A stretch of 33,336 bases of DNA from Pseudomonadota bacterium. Lineage in GTDB: Bacteria; Pseudomonadota; Gammaproteobacteria; Burkholderiales; Thiobacillaceae. How positions within the stretch are numbered: the first letter of the stretch is position 1; each line of letters begins with the position of its first letter. The stretch covers positions 1 through 33,336 of the forward strand of contig JAUYFG010000010.1 in the NCBI GenBank assembly GCA_030690985.1. The letters run 5' to 3'. Under the pieces are notes generated by a model that was not told where the DNA came from, did not search any database, and worked only from the letters and a program-made list of their open reading frames with translations. This document shows, in pieces, positions 3,098-28,140 of the stretch. Both the position numbers and the translations under genes were made by a program.

Positions 3098-4525
<1,428 letters not shown>

Positions 4526-4563
4526 GCGAACTCCTTGAACTTGCGGCCGGGAGAGGGGGCGCA

Positions 4564-4660
4564 CTCACCTGGCGCACCCGTGCCCGGCACAGGTTGAACA
4601 GGTGAGCGCAGTTTTGAACCGAGCCTGACGGACAACCGTTGCAGCGCTCCTCGGTGGGGC
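4564..4660 (-). promoter_or_regulatory. SAH riboswitch of ahcY
   Basis: Read on the minus strand, the leader contains CCGAGGAGCGCTGCAACGG (4636-4654), then CAGGCTCGG (4619-4627) and CTGCGCTC (4604-4611). This is the ordered set of conserved words of the SAH riboswitch family: CCGAG pairs with CTCGG, and GAGCGC pairs with GCGCTC as a pseudoknot. Directly after it, CTCACCTG and CAGGTGAG (4565-4572) can form an alternative hairpin, a likely expression platform about 40 bases before the start codon. SAH riboswitches are known to switch on SAH-recycling genes. Position and orientation fit ahcY exactly. Confidence 0.93.
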
Positions 4661-4798
4661 GGGATTATCCCGACTCCCGCCCATATCGCAAAGCCGGTTC
4701 AGGCCAGATTCAGGCAAATTCGCGCCACCCCCGCGAAGGCATCGCGCTATGCAACTGTGCATGGCTCGGAGAACCGCCCCATGCCATGAAACAACGAT

Positions 4799-4879
4799 GT
4801 AGGTTGGGCTGAGGGACGAAGCCCAACAACAGTGCGGCTGGCGTGGGGATGTTGGGCTTCGTCCCTCAGCCCAACCTAC
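4799..4879. repeat. Long perfect palindrome, GTAGGTTGGGC type
   Basis: The left arm starts GTAGGTTGGGCTGAGGGACG and its exact reverse complement ends at 4879, giving a stem of 29 bp around a 23-base loop. Related palindromes occur at 15704-15776 and, more loosely, 20206-20278. It lies between the ahcY promoter region and the outer-membrane protein terminator. The rest of 4661-4921 shows no gene. Confidence 0.85.
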
Positions 4880-4921
4880 GTGGGACCCGAATGCCGGCTG
4901 TTTCACAGTAACCGTGCGCCC

Positions 4922-4948
4922 AACAAAAAGCCCGGCCGAGGCCGGGCT
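4922..4948 (-). terminator. Rho-independent terminator of the outer-membrane protein gene
   Basis: On the minus strand AGCCCGGCC-TCG-GGCCGGGCT is followed by TTTTTGTT, a nine-base-pair GC stem with a T tract, 25-50 bases beyond the stop of the gene at 4973-5614. Confidence 0.85.
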
Positions 4949-4972
4949 GCGCGAGAGGGGGTTGTGTAGCGT

Positions 4973-5614
4973 TTAGAAGTGGAATACGGCGCCAAGTGAA
5001 TACAGATCGACGTCGTGTTTATTGAAGTTGTTTCCGCCGCCAACATCCTGGAAGCGGTCCCATTCGGCCCGCAGGCCCATCTGCTTGCTGATCTGCCAGT
5101 TCACGCCGAGGCCGTAGGCCAAGTCGGTGCCATCGTCGCTGGCGTTGGCCGAGGCCAGCGTAGTCGACGCGGTTGCTTCGAGGTTCCAGGCGAAAACGCC
5201 CGCCTTGGCGAAGACGGCAAATGTCTCGTTTACCGGTAGGATGCCCACGGCGGAAAGCAGGAAACCATCCCCATCCGTTTTCGAGCGATAGGGGCTTCCC
5301 GCCAGGGTGGCGTAGGTGGCATTGCCGGTGAATGAACCCAGACCCACATAGGCTGCCTCGACTGCGAAATTCTTGTTCACTTGGTAACCGCCGAACAGCT
5401 TCCAGCCGGTGTCCGAGTCGTCCACCGAAGCCACGACGCCGGTCGCACCGAGCGCTTCCAGGTCGGATTTGAGTTGGCCCGCGTCGGAGTCAACCGTGGA
5501 TTGCCCCAGAGACACCCCGGCATACCAGCCGCTATCCGCAGCCATCGCCGCGACGGAACTGCCGGCCAGCAGCAGGGTGGCGAGGCTTGAAACGATCAAT
5601 TTGGTACGAAGCAT
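4973..5614 (-). CDS. Outer-membrane beta-barrel protein (OmpA transmembrane-like)
   Basis: The 213-residue product has a clear signal peptide (basic MLRTK, hydrophobic core, cleavage expected after AAMA around residue 25). The mature part is built of alternating strands: GWYAGVSLGQS near the start, KLFGGYQVNKNFAVEAAYVG in the middle, and a C-terminus ending in F (SLGAVFHF), the usual outer-membrane assembly signal. This fits an eight-stranded OmpA/OmpX-like barrel without a peptidoglycan-binding OmpA C-domain. Its role is unknown. The ATG at 5614 is preceded by GGGAGAAAG; longer starts would place the signal peptide internally. It is transcribed away from the XRE regulator at 5759, with which it shares an intergenic region, and ends at a strong terminator. 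Confidence 0.85.
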   Translation of the reverse strand: MLRTKLIVSSLATLLLAGSSVAAMAADSGWYAGVSLGQSTVDSDAGQLKSDLEALGATGVVASVDDSDTGWKLFGGYQVNKNFAVEAAYVGLGSFTGNATYATLAGSPYRSKTDGDGFLLSAVGILPVNETFAVFAKAGVFAWNLEATASTTLASANASDDGTDLAYGLGVNWQISKQMGLRAEWDRFQDVGGGNNFNKHDVDLYSLGAVFHF

Positions 5615-5686
5615 TTTCTTTCTCCCGATGGTTTGAACAAGGTTTTCCTTACGGATACGGCCTGATTTCGGTCGCAATACTACGTT

Positions 5687-5710
5687 ATGCGTAATTTGTT
5701 GTGCGTAATT
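5687..5710. promoter_or_regulatory. Direct repeats in the divergent promoter region (candidate operator)
   Basis: ATGCGTAATT (5687-5696) and GTGCGTAATT (5701-5710) are near-identical 10-mers with starts 14 bases apart, in the 144-bp gap between the outer-membrane protein gene and the XRE regulator. Further downstream GTTTTTGCGAAAAAC is close to palindromic. Such repeats between divergent genes are typical regulator sites; binding by the neighbouring XRE protein is an inference. Confidence 0.35.
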
Positions 5711-5758
5711 AATGGTATTGTTTTTGCGAAAAACGTAAGTAGTTTGCATATTCGCCGC

Positions 5759-6091
5759 ATGAATATCGGCGGCACGATCAAGGCTCTGCGAGAACAACGT
5801 GGCTGGTCCCAGGAAGAGTTGGGCTGGCGCGTAAGTTCATCGTCGGCAAACATTTCCCGCATCGAAACGGGTAAACACGGCCCCGGGCCTGATGTCCTCG
5901 AAGCCTTGGCCAAGGCTTTCGAGCTCAAGGTCTATGAACTGTTCGCTTTGGCCGAGGGCGAACCACTGCACCTGGTTGCCCGTCTCCCTGACCAAGCCGA
6001 GGAATTGCTGCTCCAGTCCTTCCGGGCGATGAGCGAGGAACGACGGCTACTGCTGCTGCAGGTGGGCGCCCAGTTTGCACAGCCAGGCTAA
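5759..6091 (+). CDS. XRE-family helix-turn-helix regulator
   Basis: The 110-residue protein begins with a Cro/C1-type helix-turn-helix (residues about 4-58: IKALREQRGWSQEELGWRV, ISRIETGKHGPGPDVLEALA), followed by a short C-terminal helical tail with QAEELLLQSFRAMSEERR that may support dimerisation. There is no peptidase or ligand domain. The ATG at 5759 places the domain at the N-terminus; longer forms run into the promoter region. It is divergent from the outer-membrane protein gene and may regulate it. No toxin gene adjoins it, so an antitoxin role has no support here. Confidence 0.85.
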   Translation: MNIGGTIKALREQRGWSQEELGWRVSSSSANISRIETGKHGPGPDVLEALAKAFELKVYELFALAEGEPLHLVARLPDQAEELLLQSFRAMSEERRLLLLQVGAQFAQPG

Positions 6092-6108
6092 GTAGGAAGG
6101 TCTTCCCT

Positions 6109-6230
6109 GTAGCGCCGGCTGATAAAGCCCCTGATGAAGCCCCTAAGCGAAGGACTAAGCCGCCAAAAGACGGCGGCCAAGTCCCTGCTTATACCCTTCG
6201 GCAATCCTTGCCGGCGGGATATAAAAAAAC
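6109..6230. repeat. Nested palindromic repeats, including a 62-bp repeat also at 15837
   Basis: Bases 6131-6192 are identical to 15837-15898. The repeat folds as nested stems: GCTT/AAGC outside, GGACT/AGTCC inside that, and GCCGCC/GGCGGC at the tip. The outer words CTGTAGCGCCGG (6109-6120) reappear inverted as CCGGCGCTACAG (6571-6582), so MITE copy B interrupts a larger palindromic array. No gene is present. Confidence 0.75.
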
Positions 6231-6549
6231 GGCTCTATGTGATTCGTAATGGGTAACGCGCAGGGCCGGCGGGCAGGTCACGCCGATCAACCTGCATACC
6301 GGCGATGGTAGCGTGCGCTGTGCGCACGATTGGACGTGTCCCATGGGATACCGTGCCCTGCGGGACAAAAATCGTGCGCACAGCGCACGCTACGGAGTTC
6401 GTAGGAGCGGGCTTGCCCGCGATTGGCGGCGGTTATCGCGGGCAGCGGAGTCGTTGCCGCTTCAGCGGCTTTACGAATCCGGCGTGCCCCTTGCGGGTGC
6501 AAGCCCGCTCCTACGGCAACGCGTTACCCACTACGAATCACATAGCGCC
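6231..6549. mobile_element. MITE copy B, 319 bp, with 30-bp terminal inverted repeats
   Basis: The ends (6231-6260 and 6520-6549) are inverted copies of the same 30-bp sequence, starting GGCTCTATGTGATTCGTA, with two mismatches. The element is flanked by the 8-bp direct repeat AAAAAAAC (6223-6230 and 6550-6557). Removing it and one repeat copy restores a hairpin with arms ATCCTTGCCGGCG and CGCCGGCAAGGAT. Inside are two large hairpins and no gene. The GG-terminated ends and AT-rich 8-bp duplication resemble ISL3-family transposition, an inference; no such transposase is in the window. Confidence 0.85.
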
Positions 6550-6622
6550 AAAAAAACGCCGGCAAGGATACCGGCGCTACAGTAGGGATTCGATTTTCGG
6601 CTGCGGGCCGATGACTTCGCTT

Positions 6623-7192
6623 TCAAGCCACGTCAGTCCCTGCGTACAACTCGGCAATCGGCAGCGCCACGCCGACGCTGGCGAATTCCACCACGTCGCC
6701 GGGCTCATAGGTGATGTAGAGCCAACCTATATCGCCTTGGCAGCGGTAGATCTCGACCTGTTGCGTGTCCTGGCTGACCAGGACGTATTCCTGGAGCGAG
6801 GGCAGGCGACGGTAGGCGTGCAGCTTCTCGCGCCGGTCGGTGGCTTCGGTGCTGGGCGAGAGGACTTCGACCACCAGCAGCGGGTTGCTCACCACCTGGG
6901 ATTCGTTGGCGGCGCTGGCCTGTTCGGAACAGGTGGCCATCACATCCGGGTAGTAATAGGCGCTGTCTCGGGCGACGTGGAGTTTCACGTCGTTCATGAA
7001 GACCTGGCAGGGTCTGCCTTTCAATGCCAGGGAGAGCGAGATGTAGGCATTCCCGGCTACCCGGTTGTGCCGCAGCGTTCCCCCCGACATGGCGTAAGCC
7101 TCGCCCCCCACGTATTCATGGCGGAACGGCGCGGTTTCCTCGAAGGCGAGGTACTCGGCTTCGGAAAGTATTTGTTTTTCCGCGAGTTGCAT
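6623..7192 (-). CDS. Uma2-family (DUF820) putative nuclease 1
   Basis: The 189-residue protein has the Uma2 layout: an N-terminal EAEYLAFEE..P.RHEYVGGE, a central VARDSAYYYPDVMATC carrying the PD of a PD-(D/E)XK fold, and NPLLVVEVLSPSTEATDR followed by KLHAYRRLPSLQEYVLVSQD. The family is structurally nuclease-like, is common in cyanobacteria and many other bacteria, and has no settled biological role. The ATG at 7192 lies 10 bases after the stop of the upstream Uma2 gene, so the two form an operon. The leader before the pair carries an SAH-riboswitch-like element. Sequence similarity between the two products is limited to the core motifs, so this is not a recent duplication. Confidence 0.85.
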   Translation of the reverse strand: MQLAEKQILSEAEYLAFEETAPFRHEYVGGEAYAMSGGTLRHNRVAGNAYISLSLALKGRPCQVFMNDVKLHVARDSAYYYPDVMATCSEQASAANESQVVSNPLLVVEVLSPSTEATDRREKLHAYRRLPSLQEYVLVSQDTQQVEIYRCQGDIGWLYITYEPGDVVEFASVGVALPIAELYAGTDVA

Positions 7193-7202
7193 GACGCGCT
7201 CC

Positions 7203-7676
7203 TCAGTGATTAAGCAACGGCCTGGGGTCCAGCCCATATTCGGATTGCGCGCGCTCGCCCTCGGCGCCGAAGAATCGTGCCTCGCCTGTTTCCAGGACGA
7301 TCCACACTTCCCTGGCGCCGGCCTCCAGGTAGAGGCGGGTCTTGAAGTGAAGTTCTTCCTCGGAATTGGAGGGGGAGCGCACCTCGACGCAGATTTCCGG
7401 GGCACGTGGGTAGGGCGTTTCGTAGCCGTGGCGGTTGAAAAAGGCATCTGAAAACCAGGCCACGTCGGCCACTTTTACCCCTTCTGGGGTGGCGACTGAA
7501 CATTCCATGAGGGTGCGTCCTTGCGGAAGCTTCTCCAGCAGGGTGGCGAGCACCGATTGCAGCCGGCCATGCCGATTACTGGCTGGACTCAAGACCACGT
7601 TTCCCCATTTGTCGAGTTCGATCTTGTACGGCAGGTCTCTGAGCGACTTGTCGGATAGCACTTCAGCCCACTGCAT
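7203..7676 (-). CDS. Uma2-family putative nuclease 2
   Basis: This 157-residue protein is the first gene of the pair. It shows the shorter Uma2 pattern: KIELDKWGNVVLSPASNRHG near the start, VADVAWFSDAFF with the acidic residue of the catalytic core, and APEICVEVRSPSNSEEELHF with E-V-R-S-P-S at the second acidic position, then LEAGAREVWIV. The ATG at 7676 has a GGGGG run 5-9 bases upstream as a weak ribosome binding site. It is about 95 bases downstream of an SAH-riboswitch-like element, at a spacing similar to ahcY and its riboswitch. Function is unknown; regulation by SAH is implied by position only. Confidence 0.8.
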   Translation of the reverse strand: MQWAEVLSDKSLRDLPYKIELDKWGNVVLSPASNRHGRLQSVLATLLEKLPQGRTLMECSVATPEGVKVADVAWFSDAFFNRHGYETPYPRAPEICVEVRSPSNSEEELHFKTRLYLEAGAREVWIVLETGEARFFGAEGERAQSEYGLDPRPLLNH

Positions 7677-7726
7677 GATGGCCCCCTATTTCCGTTGCGC
7701 AGGAGGTGGTGAGGCACGAACCGCAT

Positions 7727-7880
7727 CACCCTCACCTGACGTCCCATGCCCGGCACGGGTTGAACAAGCGAGCGCGGTTTTGAATCGAGCCTGACGGAAT
7801 AGCCGTTGCAGCGCTCCTCGGTGGGCCGGGATTATCCCGACTCCCGGCGCAATCGCAAAGTCGGCTTGCACCAGATTCAT
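7727..7880 (-). promoter_or_regulatory. Second SAH-riboswitch-like leader, before the Uma2 genes
   Basis: On the minus strand this block repeats the ahcY leader: CCGAGGAGCGCTGCAACGG (7803-7821) is identical, followed by CAGGCTCGA (7785-7793) and CCGCGCTCG. The similarity extends upstream through CGGGAGTCGGGATAATCCCG and TTTGCGAT to TGAATCTGG, and downstream through GTGCCGGGCA to CAGGTGAG. The outermost P1 pair is lost (CCGAG/CTCGA) but CGAG/CTCG remains, and the pseudoknot halves GAGCGC/GCGCTC are intact. The downstream alternative stem is kept with G-U pairs (CTCGCTTG/CAGGTGAG). Core conservation argues against simple decay; function is untested. Confidence 0.75.
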
Positions 7881-8041
7881 GCCACTGCAAGAAACCAGGC
7901 GCGATCAACTCCGCGATGCCTGATGCGGGATGCCCGCCTGCTTCGACTGAAAGAGGGGTGATGATTCACCGCAATTTTCCGCTATCCTCGCCACGCCCAC
8001 CGTAGCCACATACCACCCGTCTTTCCGTAGGAGAAAACATC

Positions 8042-8542: not shown

Positions 8543-8900
8543 TGTAGGTGCGAATTTATTGGCTCTATGTGATTCGTAGTGGGTAACGCGCAGGGCTGGC
8601 GGGCAGGTCACGCCGATCAAACCGCATACCGGCGAGGGTAGCGTGCGCTGCGCGCACGATTGGACGTGTCCCATGGGATACCGTGCCCTGCGGGACAAAA
8701 ATCGTGCGCACAGCGCACGCTACGGTGGAGTTCGTAGGAGCGGGCTTGCCCGCGATTGACGGCGGTTATCGCGGGCAGCGGAGTCGTTGCCGCTTCAGCG
8801 GCTTCACGAATCCGGCGTACCCCTTGCGGGTGCAAGCCCGCTCCTACGGCAACGCGTTACCCACTACGAATCACATAGAGCCAATTTATTCGCACCTACG
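8543..8900. repeat. Palindromic target hairpin split by MITE copy C
   Basis: GTAGGTGCGAATTTATT lies left of the MITE and AATTTATTCGCACCTAC right of it. Joining them with one AATTTATT copy gives GTAGGTGCGAA-TTTA-TTCGCACCTAC, a perfect 11-bp stem with a 4-base loop. The element therefore inserted into the loop of a REP-like hairpin. Confidence 0.85.
8561..8882. mobile_element. MITE copy C, 322 bp, with perfect 30-bp terminal inverted repeats
   Basis: The ends 8561-8590 and 8853-8882 are exact reverse complements over 30 bp. Flanking 8-bp direct repeats AATTTATT sit at 8553-8560 and 8883-8890. Inside, GTAGCGTGCGCTG... (8638-8660) pairs with ...CAGCGCACGCTAC (8701-8723) over 23 bp with one mismatch, and a second palindrome starting GTAGGAGCGGGCTTGCCCGC is interrupted in its right arm by roughly 57 bp. 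There is no coding capacity. It is very similar to copy B. Confidence 0.92.
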
Positions 8901-24935: not shown

Positions 24936-26531
24936 ATGGAACGATTTTTCAACACAGCGGGACCGATCATTCCGACCGATCACTACCACATCCCCTCGTT
25001 CGAACGGGTGGACTGGGACGAGATCCAGAACCTGATCGCGCGGAAACGCTATTTCCTGCTGCACGCCCCGCGCCAGACCGGCAAGACCAGCGCCCTGCTG
25101 GAAATGATGCAGGCGCTCAACGAGGTGGGGAAATACCGGGCGCTTTACGCGAATATCGAAGGTGCGCAGGCCGCCCGCAACGATGTCGAAGCCGGCATCG
25201 CCACCGTCTGCAATGCCCTGGTGCGTTCCGCCGATGTCTATCTGCAAGAAAAGCGGCTGAGCGCCTGGCTCAATGCCGAGGGCAAGGCCATGCCCGCGCA
25301 GGATCGCTTCAGCGCCCTGCTGGCGCACTGGGCCGGCATCAGCGACAAACCCATCGTCCTGTTCCTCGACGAAGCCGACGCCCTGATCGGCGACACCCTG
25401 GTTTCCCTGCTGCGCCAGATTCGCGCCGGCTACGCGCAACGTCCCAACGCCTTCCCGCAATCCATCGTCCTGTGCGGCCTGCGCGACATCAAGGACTACC
25501 GCATCCACGTCGCCAACGGCGATGTCATCACCGGCGGCTCGGCGTTCAACATCAAGGCGAAATCCCTGCGCCTGGGCAACTTCAGCGAAGCCGAGGTGCG
25601 CGCGCTCTACCAGCAGCACACCACGGCCACCGGGCAGACCTTCGCTGAGGCCATCTTTGTGGAGGCCTGGGCAGACACCCGCGGCCAGCCCTGGCTGGTC
25701 AACGCCCTGGCCCACGAAATGACCTGGGAAGACCGCGCCGCCCGCGACCGTGCCACCCCGATCACCCTGGAACGCTACCTCGCCGCGCGCGAGCGGCTGA
25801 TCTACTCACGCGCCACCCACCTCGACCAGCTCACCGACAAACTCCGGGAGCCGCGCGTGCATGGCGTCATTTCCGCCCTGCTTTCCGGCGAACAGACCGA
25901 ACTGCTGGTGCCCCACGACGACCTGCAATACGTCGAAGACCTCGGCCTCATCGTCCGCAAGCCGCAACTGCACATCAGCAACCGCATCTACCGGGAAGTC
26001 ATCCCGCGCGAACTCACTTCGGTGACGCAGGACACCATGGTGCAGCAGCAATCCTGGTACCTCACCCCCGACCGCCACCTGGACATGGCCAAGCTCCTCG
26101 CCGCCTTCCAGCAGTTCTTCAGGGAGAACTCGGAGAGCTGGATCGAACGCTTCGACTACAAGGAAGCCGGCCCGCAACTGCTGATGCAGGCCTTTCTGCA
26201 ACGCATCATCAACGGCGGCGGCCGAATCAACCGCGAATACGGCTTGGGCCGGCGCCGCACCGACCTCCTGATCGAATGGCCGGTGAATGAGGCCGCAGGC
26301 TTCCACGGCGAGGTGCAGCGCATCGTCATCGAACTCAAGCTGCAACACGGCACATTGGAGGCCGTGCTCGACAAGGGACTCGAACAAACCGCCGACTACG
26401 CCGACAAGTGCCGCGCCGACGAAGCCCATCTGCTCCTCTTCAACCGCAATCCGAACGTGAGTTGGGACGACAAGATCTGGCGGCGGACGCTGGAAAACCA
26501 GGGACGGAGCATCGACGTCTGGGGCGCCTAG
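24936..26531 (+). CDS. AAA-like ATPase with C-terminal PD-(D/E)XK nuclease domain, copy 1
   Basis: The 531-residue protein has an AAA/STAND-like ATPase with Walker A APRQTGKT (44-51) and Walker B IVLFLDEAD (140-148), a helical middle, and a C-terminal nuclease-like domain with E434, D443 (RRRTDLLIEW) and E466-x-K468 (IVIELKL), the PD-(D/E)XK pattern. Similar single proteins are widespread in bacteria with no established function. The ATG at 24936 is chosen because the tandem paralogue begins at the same residue (ME.FFNTAGP) and both then have exactly 531 codons; ATG 24909 is possible. Between residues 39 and 208 the two paralogues differ at one position, whereas the N-terminal 38 residues and the C-terminal third diverge. 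The gap to copy 2 is 13 bp. Confidence 0.9.
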   Translation: MERFFNTAGPIIPTDHYHIPSFERVDWDEIQNLIARKRYFLLHAPRQTGKTSALLEMMQALNEVGKYRALYANIEGAQAARNDVEAGIATVCNALVRSADVYLQEKRLSAWLNAEGKAMPAQDRFSALLAHWAGISDKPIVLFLDEADALIGDTLVSLLRQIRAGYAQRPNAFPQSIVLCGLRDIKDYRIHVANGDVITGGSAFNIKAKSLRLGNFSEAEVRALYQQHTTATGQTFAEAIFVEAWADTRGQPWLVNALAHEMTWEDRAARDRATPITLERYLAARERLIYSRATHLDQLTDKLREPRVHGVISALLSGEQTELLVPHDDLQYVEDLGLIVRKPQLHISNRIYREVIPRELTSVTQDTMVQQQSWYLTPDRHLDMAKLLAAFQQFFRENSESWIERFDYKEAGPQLLMQAFLQRIINGGGRINREYGLGRRRTDLLIEWPVNEAAGFHGEVQRIVIELKLQHGTLEAVLDKGLEQTADYADKCRADEAHLLLFNRNPNVSWDDKIWRRTLENQGRSIDVWGA

Positions 26532-26544
26532 CCAAGGAAACGAC

Positions 26545-28140
26545 ATGGAAAAATTCTTCAATACGGCGGGGCCGATGAAGGCCGAGATTCACTACTGCAT
26601 CCCCTCGTTCGAGCGAATCGACTGGGACGAGATGCAAGTGCTCATCGCCAGCCAGAAATATTTCCTGCTGCACGCCCCGCGCCAGACCGGCAAGACCAGC
26701 GCCCTCCTGGAAATGATGCAGGCGCTCAACGAGGCCGGGAAATACCGGGCGCTGTACGCCAATATCGAAGGTGCGCAGGCCGCGCGCAACGATGTCGAAG
26801 CCGGCATCGCCACCGTCTGCAATGCCCTGGTGCGTTCCGCCGATGTCTATCTGCAAGAAAAGCGGCTGAGCGCCTGGCTCAACGCCGAGGGCAAGGCCAT
26901 GCCCGCGCAGGACCGCTTCAGCGCCCTGCTGGCGCACTGGGCCGGCATCAGCGACAAACCCATCGTCCTGTTCCTCGATGAGGCCGACGCCCTGATCGGC
27001 GACACCCTCGTCTCCCTGCTGCGCCAGATTCGCGCCGGCTATGCCCAGCGCCCCAACGCCTTCCCGCAATCCATCGTCCTGTGCGGCCTGCGCGACATCA
27101 AGGACTATCGCATCCACGTCGCCAACGGCGATGTCATCACCGGCGGCTCCGCCTTCAACATCAAGGCCGAGTCGCTACGCCTGGGCAACTTCACCGAGAC
27201 CGAGGTGCGCGCGCTCTACCAACAGCACACCACGGCCACCGGCCAGACCTTCGCTGAGGCCATCTTTGTGGATGTCTGGGCGGACACCCGCGGCCAGCCC
27301 TGGCTGGTCAACGCCCTCGCCCACGAAATGACCTGGAAGGACCGCTCCGCCCGCGACCGTGCCACCCCGATCACCCTGGAACGCTACCTCGCCGCGCGCG
27401 AACGGCTGATCTACTCACGCGCCACCCACCTCGACCAGCTCACCGACAAACTCCGGGAGCCGCGCGTGCATGGCGTCATCTCGGCCTTGCTCTCGGGCGA
27501 ACAAACCGAACTGCTGGTGCCCCACGACGACCTGCAATACGTCGAAGACCTCGGCCTCATCGTGCGTAAACCGCAGATGCGCATCAGCAACCGCATCTAC
27601 CAGGAAATCATCCCGCGCGAACTGATCTCGGTGACTCAGGACACCATGGTGCAGCAACAGTCCTGGTACCTCAGCCGCGAGCGCCGCCTGGACCTGCCCA
27701 AGCTGCTCGCCGCCTTCCAGCAATTCTTCCGCGAGAACTCGGAGTCCTGGATCGAGCGCTTCGACTACAAGGAAGCCGGCCCGCAACTGCTGATGCAAGC
27801 TTTCCTGCAACGCATCATCAACGGCGGCGGCCGGCTCAACCGCGAATACGGCCTGGGCCGCCGCCGCACCGACCTGCTGATCGAATGGCCGGTGAATGAG
27901 GCAGAGGGCTTCCACGGCGAGGTGCAGCGCATCGTCATCGAACTCAAGTTGCTGCGCGGCGCTCTGGAAACCGTGCTGGAAAAAGGCCTGCGGCAAACCG
28001 CCGAATACGCCGACGCGGCGCAGGCCGATGAGGCCCACCTGGTCATATTCAACCGCGATGCCGCAGTGAGTTGGGACGACAAAATCTGGCACCAGGGACG
28101 GGAATTCCAGGGGCGGATGATCGGGGTGTGGGGGGCGTGA
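26545..28140 (+). CDS. AAA-like ATPase with C-terminal PD-(D/E)XK nuclease domain, copy 2
   Basis: A tandem paralogue of the preceding gene, also 531 residues, with the same Walker A (APRQTGKT), Walker B (IVLFLDEAD) and nuclease residues (RTDLLIEW, IVIELKL). Differences cluster at residues 11-38 (GPMKAEIHYCIPSFERIDWD) and after about 209, including the region before the nuclease (SWYLSRERRLDLPKLL). AAGGAAACG precedes the ATG by 3-11 bases. Its TGA overlaps a possible ATG of the nucleotidyltransferase gene that follows, so copy 1, copy 2, MNT and HEPN appear to form one transcript. Retention of intact active-site residues in both copies argues that both are used. Confidence 0.9.
   Translation: MEKFFNTAGPMKAEIHYCIPSFERIDWDEMQVLIASQKYFLLHAPRQTGKTSALLEMMQALNEAGKYRALYANIEGAQAARNDVEAGIATVCNALVRSADVYLQEKRLSAWLNAEGKAMPAQDRFSALLAHWAGISDKPIVLFLDEADALIGDTLVSLLRQIRAGYAQRPNAFPQSIVLCGLRDIKDYRIHVANGDVITGGSAFNIKAESLRLGNFTETEVRALYQQHTTATGQTFAEAIFVDVWADTRGQPWLVNALAHEMTWKDRSARDRATPITLERYLAARERLIYSRATHLDQLTDKLREPRVHGVISALLSGEQTELLVPHDDLQYVEDLGLIVRKPQMRISNRIYQEIIPRELISVTQDTMVQQQSWYLSRERRLDLPKLLAAFQQFFRENSESWIERFDYKEAGPQLLMQAFLQRIINGGGRLNREYGLGRRRTDLLIEWPVNEAEGFHGEVQRIVIELKLLRGALETVLEKGLRQTAEYADAAQADEAHLVIFNRDAAVSWDDKIWHQGREFQGRMIGVWGA

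Follow-up and report, generated by a model that had tools for sequence, protein, structure and literature searches.

In the 33,336-nucleotide stretch of DNA analysed here, which is referred to as the window, a two-gene Uma2 operon has probably been brought into an SAH-responsive regulon by a duplicate of the promoter and SAH riboswitch of ahcY. SAH is the methylation by-product that is sensed by the SAH riboswitch. The switch before the Uma2 genes, designated RS2, is most likely an SAH-ON switch, at present or until recently, by which the Uma2 pair is tied to the methylation state; the switch of ahcY itself is designated RS1. Among the 117 genomes of the family that were surveyed, the arrangement of RS2 and the Uma2 pair is carried by two only, the window genome (G000) and a second MAG (G015). 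Uma2 proteins occur in large numbers without an agreed role, and their recurrent location next to metK and ahcY, seen in two groups of bacteria, provides a concrete clue for a subfamily. The SAH sensor located before Uma2 in one lineage adds to this clue for one Uma2 subfamily, and the RS2 leader represents an example of a promoter-riboswitch cassette before a new operon.

The SAH riboswitch leader ahead of the Uma2 genes

With the Rfam model of the SAH riboswitch (RF01057, gathering score 37 bits), two matches were reported in G000, both on the minus strand of the window: RS1 at 4656-4597 before ahcY, with 52.8 bits, and RS2 at 7823-7763 directly before the Uma2 pair, with 46.4 bits. The original prediction of a second SAH-riboswitch leader, for which a covariance search had been proposed, is supported by this score above the cut-off. 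By its covariance score, RS2 is an SAH riboswitch with putative SAH binding. A 19-base core, CCGAGGAGCGCTGCAACGG, is present at 4636-4654 and 7803-7821 and is absent elsewhere even when two mismatches are allowed, and it did not occur once in 100 shuffles. A chance resemblance of RS2 was ruled out by the covariance score and the shuffles of the core.

In RS2 of the window, the pseudoknot strands GAGCGC/GCGCTC (7816-7811 and 7775-7770) and the P2 pairs are intact, while P1 contains one C-A mismatch (7821/7785). The shared core, the pseudoknot halves and the promoter-like block had been described correctly before; the mismatch in P1 had been left unmentioned. From 26 columns which are invariant across 24 other aptamers, 25 are retained in RS2 of the window and 24 in RS2 of G015; of the reference aptamers, 20 belong to the genus, including that of G006 at the end of its contig, and the named genome collection contributed the other four. 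Both RS2 copies score below the RS1 copy of their own genome.

The position upstream of a methionine-cycle gene is a habit of RF01057 and no part of its structure. RS2 is located immediately upstream of Uma2 and of no methionine-cycle gene, and ahcY, preceded by a switch of its own, lies a further 3.2 kb away. With the ahcY switches of RF01057, RS2 shares, by its score, the aptamer fold, and in addition most of the conserved core, the pseudoknot strands, the competing downstream stem and the promoter-like block, but it differs from them in the gene downstream, which is Uma2, and, in the window copy, in the P1 mismatch. PMC4239095 names ahcY and metF as targets of SAH riboswitches, joined in certain taxa by metH, COG1189, PF04020 and COG1385, and a further proteobacterial target, PF04993, is given in PMC3766115; the word Uma2 is absent from both main texts. 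If the reading presented here is true, the targets of SAH switches extend beyond those named in these two texts. In a literature search covering article texts from few subscription journals, Uma2 and the SAH riboswitch were never found together in one paper, and within the same scope no paper was found that pairs Uma2 with metK or COG4636 with a riboswitch.

The leader of the Uma2 genes repeats that of ahcY at 84.3% identity (7731-7882 compared to 4564-4715). The duplication of a cassette had been recognized previously, with bounds of 7727-7880 which are corrected here to 7731-7882. A promoter-like block, TTGCGA-16-GATAAT, is located on the minus strand at 7831-7858 and is a copy of the ahcY block at 4691-4664; the two are the sole such sites within 4400-8000, with a mean of 0.9 sites in shuffles of this region. 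Across the block of the Uma2 leader, a run of 33 bases is identical to the ahcY leader of G011. The homology of the leaders ends before the ahcY Shine-Dalgarno sequence, and a spacer without counterpart in the ahcY leader (7677-7727, minus strand) lies between the downstream stem and uma2_1. In this spacer, a possible anti-Shine-Dalgarno sequence, CCTCCT (7706-7701), and the Shine-Dalgarno sequence AGGGGG (7687-7682) were identified. Immediately ahead of uma2_1, a stretch of 22 bases (7698-7677) can be aligned with the spacer between metK and uma2_1 in G014; for the spacer of G011, the alignment covers 15 bases.

By blastn, the RS2 leader is more similar to the ahcY leader of G011 (90% over 135 bases) than to the resident leader (84%). 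G011 is no more than a possible donor of the cassette, with longer leaders erasing the difference (82.3 versus 83.4%) and the tree giving no placement. An assembly artefact is very unlikely, since the gene order recurs in G015, a MAG of its own.

Selection on the leader and switching

When G000 and G015 are compared, 8 of the 152 cassette sites are changed, against 44 of the 162 fourfold sites of uma2_1 and uma2_2 (p=1e-7). The differences are found at 2 of 59 sites in the promoter part, at 4 of 61 in the aptamer and at 2 of 32 in the platform; the spacer, outside the cassette, differs at 6 of 54. The aptamer alone is likewise less diverged than the fourfold sites (p=5e-4). Three of the four aptamer differences affect columns that are invariant in the 24 other aptamers, such columns making up 26 of the 61. 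One of these three changes is the P1 C-A mismatch of G000 and two belong to G015. In the RS2 of G015, in which P1 is paired, a C-to-U substitution converts one pseudoknot pair into G-U, and an A of the AAC motif is replaced by U. The RS1 aptamer shows no difference between the two genomes. Judged by these substitutions, the RS2 leader is still under selection, with a ligand response that may be altered or weakening.

It is rather unlikely, in comparison, that the pair lost the promoter of metK and took over that of ahcY with an aptamer which was intact at first but is in decay at present and has ceased to control expression. Such fading would agree with the promoter being the best kept part of the cassette, with the changes at invariant columns in both lineages, and with the folding of the G015 leader described below, for which an unchanged exposure of the Shine-Dalgarno sequence is predicted. 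However, the aptamer is better kept than the fourfold sites, and both RS2 copies (43.0 bits in G015) lie above the Rfam cut-off. The aptamers of G001 and G013 also depart from the consensus, at one and two otherwise invariant columns, so that changes of this kind need not kill a switch. With 41.1 bits for the ahcY switch of G001 and 40.1 bits for the contig-end match of G006, two further matches score below both RS2 copies.

The stem of the expression platform that competes with the pseudoknot is located at 7728-7775 on the minus strand and contains an inner hairpin, CCCGTGC/GCATGGG. Here, GCGCTCGCTTG (7775-7765) can form 10 of 11 pairs with CAGGTGAGGGT (7738-7728), including three G-U pairs, in agreement with the earlier observation that the switching stem is kept through G-U pairs. 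In an alignment of 12 of the 22 RF01057 matches of the genus, the stem is 93.7% paired, and three sequences carry a two-sided change of one pair; the whole structure is 94.2% paired, compared to 29-59% when slid. Only 6 of 500 shuffles attained the covariation score, but 401 of the 500 attained the observed count of pairs with two-sided changes, and the covariation has to be considered modest. The stem and the pseudoknot share one strand and are therefore mutually exclusive, as expected of an ON switch.

An intrinsic terminator is not evident in the RS2 leader, because no T-run follows the stem. Switching through the Shine-Dalgarno sequence was considered as another route. The predicted unpaired probability of AGGGGG in the window increased from 0.05 in the free leader to 0.27 with the pseudoknot strand withheld, and from 0.39 to 0.47 when the whole leader was folded. 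In the comparison of the free state with the withheld pseudoknot strand, the values were 0.33 and 0.34 for the RS2 leader of G015 and dropped from 0.64-0.66 to 0.32-0.45 for five ahcY leaders. Shine-Dalgarno switching is thus unsupported, because the exposure falls in the five ahcY leaders, is flat in G015 and rises in the window copy only.

RS2 of the window is somewhat more likely to function as a switch than not. In the proposed SAH-ON mechanism, transcription would start just before the aptamer. At low SAH, the 3' strand of the pseudoknot would pair with 7738-7728 and the expression of Uma2 would be low. With a rise in SAH, the pseudoknot would form, the strand 7738-7728 would be freed and the Uma2 pair would be expressed. 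By this SAH-responsive expression, the pair would keep its old tie to the methylation cycle despite the loss of metK.

The Uma2 genes and the metK-ahcY locus

The two Uma2 genes are encoded on the minus strand. The uma2_1 gene (7203-7676) codes for a protein of 157 amino acids with 63.3 bits to PF05685, and uma2_2 (6623-7192), which starts 10 bases after uma2_1, for one of 189 amino acids with 116.5 bits; both proteins are above the Pfam gathering score of 27 bits. The AlphaFold model of uma2_1 (mean pLDDT 90.4) matches the DUF820/Uma2 crystal structures 3ot2, 1wdj, 6okh and 9y1l. All seven Foldseek matches with E 5e-8 or better (TM 0.59-0.67 by query length) are chains of these four structures. 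For uma2_2, a match to 9y1l was obtained by sequence (E 2e-14). A restriction-endonuclease-like fold is thereby predicted for uma2_1 from the model, and for uma2_2 from its sequence.

The residues D71, E98 and K112 of uma2_1 and D83, E109 and K123 of uma2_2 are kept, and we take them to be catalytic by analogy with the superfamily. In uma2_1, the three residues are present in at least 90% of 24 homologs, with residue 98 being a glycine in G011. The pair looks like nucleases of the PD-(D/E)XK type with the putative active-site residues kept. Between G000 and G015, dN/dS is 0.06 for uma2_1 and 0.24 for uma2_2, which shows that both genes are under purifying selection as proteins. With the PADLOC PDC-S03 profiles, uma2_2 was matched with E 7e-28 and uma2_1 more weakly with E 3e-8; PDC-S03 is a candidate defence family only, and the match is no proof of a role in defence.

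In passages of PMC2701414 and PMC1913061, the Uma2 family is described as highly abundant in cyanobacteria, as a likely solo toxin and as a predicted PD-(D/E)XK endonuclease; the labels of solo toxin and predicted endonuclease are those of PMC2701414, and DUF820 is placed among the PD-(D/E)XK nucleases in PMC1913061. The window proteins resemble this Uma2/DUF820/COG4636 family in their PF05685 scores and, for uma2_1, in the structural matches, and they differ from it in their apparent tie to the SAM cycle.

Between uma2_2 and RS1, a gene for an OmpA-like beta-barrel protein (4973-5614, minus strand) and, divergent from it, a gene of the HTH (Cro/C1) type (5687-6091, plus strand) were identified, both of which are also present in G014, G015 and G002. 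They are followed by ahcY (3098-4525, minus strand), encoding the SAH hydrolase with 475 amino acids. On another contig of the window genome (L058 378-467, G000:C250), an apparently broken Uma2 gene is found, in which about 30 initial residues similar to uma2_1 are followed by a palindromic repeat.

In several relatives, the Uma2 genes are located behind metK. The order in G014 is metK-uma2_1-uma2_2-HTH-ompA-RS-ahcY, with RS for the riboswitch, and in G002 it is metK-uma2_2-HTH-ompA-RS-ahcY. G011 and G016 contain metK-uma2_1-uma2_2, while G012 and G018 contain metK-uma2_2-RS-ahcY. In G017, metK is followed by an 86-residue remnant of uma2_1, RS and ahcY, and directly after metK, pieces of uma2_2 are present in G001 and a 35% homolog in G022. 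Outside the genus, metK-uma2_2-uma2_1-RS-ahcY was identified in L095 and in L097 from the Methylococcaceae, uma2_2-uma2_1-RS-ahcY in L094 (the contig starts inside uma2_2), uma2_1-RS-ahcY in L096 and metK-uma2_1 in L098. The loci of G014, G012, G018, L095 and L097 share with the window metK, uma2_1 and/or uma2_2, RF01057 and ahcY. However, Uma2 stands there after metK and before the switch, whereas in the window a copy of the switch stands before Uma2 and metK is located elsewhere.

In the named genome collection, all nine loci with at least 60% identity to uma2_1 lie by metK or ahcY, compared to none of 19 below 60%, with some of the flanks at these 28 loci being short and four of the nine being G011, G014, G015 and G016. 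For 11 distant homologs from 369 genomes of the class, metK or ahcY was found within 1.5 kb in no case. From these gene orders, the close Uma2 subfamily appears to have belonged to the SAM-cycle locus for a long time, and the neighbourhood together with RS2 hints that the orphan Uma2 family works with the methylation cycle.

A generic passenger status of Uma2 genes in metabolic operons, in which their proximity to metK/ahcY and to the riboswitch would be uninformative on their function, is less likely than not and would be compatible with a functional switch. Among 20 metK loci examined in the genus, 11 have no Uma2 gene and nine have a Uma2 gene or remnant right behind metK; in this count, G006 and the partial metK of G019 are excluded, G021 has no metK match, and the G000 contig ends 199 bases behind metK. 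A Uma2 paralog of G022, 53% identical to uma2_1, is found in the setting of a leucine operon (L127 3168-8078, G022:C12), where the aconitase family, Uma2, isopropylmalate dehydrogenase and semialdehyde dehydrogenase were assigned by Pfam and leuD by eye. A passenger role is opposed by the span of the metK/ahcY association across Thiobacillaceae and Methylococcaceae, by its completeness in the close subfamily, and by the SAH-type leader of the pair that was parted from metK. By eye, similar leucine-operon settings are present in G021:C35, G017:C56 and G007:C23. The paralogs of these settings, that of G022 included, are 49-55% identical to uma2_1 and suggest a tendency of Uma2 genes to become established in metabolic operons.

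A more far-reaching proposal is a permanent partnership of the pair with the SAM/SAH cycle, in which the nuclease level would be set by the methylation state, through cotranscription with metK in several lineages and through the captured switch here. The nucleases would act on a stall of methylation, with nucleic acid that is under-methylated or a phage attack on SAM as examples. This is decidedly unlikely in its full form, and the induction of Uma2 by a SAM-degrading phage, as suggested in the original prediction, is a guess.

Origin and rarity of the arrangement

In G000 and G015, metK is located on other contigs and RS2 stands before uma2_1 in the place of metK. The two RS2 leaders cluster in the tree with moderate support (87/91), so that a single cassette event predating the split of G000 and G015 is likely. 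The ahcY leader could either have been copied straight to uma2, or first before metK with a later loss of metK. Capture of a cassette by the Uma2 operon, as originally proposed, agrees with the riboswitch score, the duplicated cassette, the Uma2 genes directly downstream and the sister case in G015. However, the pair is no unrelated operon, being already part of the metK/ahcY locus in relatives.

The proposal of a relic of a lost ahcY or metF gene holds in an altered form, in which the leader may once have stood before metK. An ancestral order of RS-metK-uma2-RS-ahcY with later loss of metK is compatible with an SAH-responsive Uma2 operon and is unlikely, with evidence on both sides. The order RS-metK-RS-ahcY exists in G190 and G421, which belong to another family, and metK is gone from the locus in G000 and G015 and present in G014. 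On the other hand, the 18 other genomes of the genus with RF01057 have one match each. No switch was detected upstream of metK by a core-motif scan of 22 metK loci of the genus with about 1.5 kb of flanks, nor by a covariance scan of 13 of these loci. The upstream flanks of RS2 also do not match the metK flanks of G014 and G002, so that the original order is not readable.

A second ahcY lost from behind RS2 is very improbable. The leader is of the ahcY type, and in G014 an extra 3' fragment of ahcY (L024 39-306, G014:C67), with 87 residues and 99% identity to the window ahcY, lies about 7 kb downstream of a full, more diverged ahcY, which indicates a recombination or duplication of ahcY in the clade. 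However, no ahcY coding piece is present behind the leader, where homology stops before the ahcY Shine-Dalgarno sequence. G000 and G015 each contain one ahcY match at E<=1e-60, and G014 has metK, not ahcY, at the position of RS2.

Among 117 genomes of the family, 108 RF01057 matches were found in 104 genomes, using stricter filters for large sets, by which some weak matches are lost, and counting ahcY matches at E<=1e-60 only. Before ahcY, 104 of the 108 are located: 101 have the gene within 481 bases downstream, and in three, the ahcY that follows is cut short by the end of the contig (G038:C33, G110 and G047). Two precede Uma2, those of G000 and G015; the survey of SAH riboswitches upstream of Uma2 genes in relatives, as originally suggested, hence revealed a second case. 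The remaining matches are that of G006, where the end of the contig leaves the following gene out of view, and that of G105, which is below the cut-off and without ahcY. In G115, tandem SAH aptamers precede one ahcY (L123, G115:C145:1159-1260 and 1381-1481), an arrangement that could provide a steeper or two-input response.

In the class, 10 of 369 genomes have two RF01057 matches among those listed: G000, G223, G340, G186, G190, G235, G271, G351, G382 and G421. The gene behind the second copy was identified in five of the nine other than G000 and is either metK (G190 and G421, by Pfam) or metH (G340 by Pfam, G235 and G351 by eye). In G186, ahcY is located behind both copies, and in G382 the second copy is at a contig end. 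The RF01057 matches of the order RS-metK-RS-ahcY are at 160-242 and 1440-1529 of L146 (G190:C3) and at 783-861 and 2095-2194 of L147 (G421:C1). According to PMC4239095, metK is not controlled by SAH riboswitches; by their gene order, G190 and G421, which are from one family, look like an exception to this statement.

A MITE-like repeat of about 320-355 bases was identified in the window at 6231-6551 and 8561-8884 and in part at 1396-1611, and also in L082 (8827-8933). Its terminal inverted repeats (8544-8590/8853-8899) are 96% complementary. The repeat flanks the uma2 segment on both sides in G000, and a matching piece is present at the contig end after the displaced metK. The repeats D2-D4 were considered as movers of the cassette and rejected: the corresponding stretches of G015 fail to align with them, so that the repeats probably arrived later. 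Elsewhere in the window, 24980-25279 and 26589-26888 form a 300-base direct repeat with 91% identity and a start-to-start spacing of 1609.
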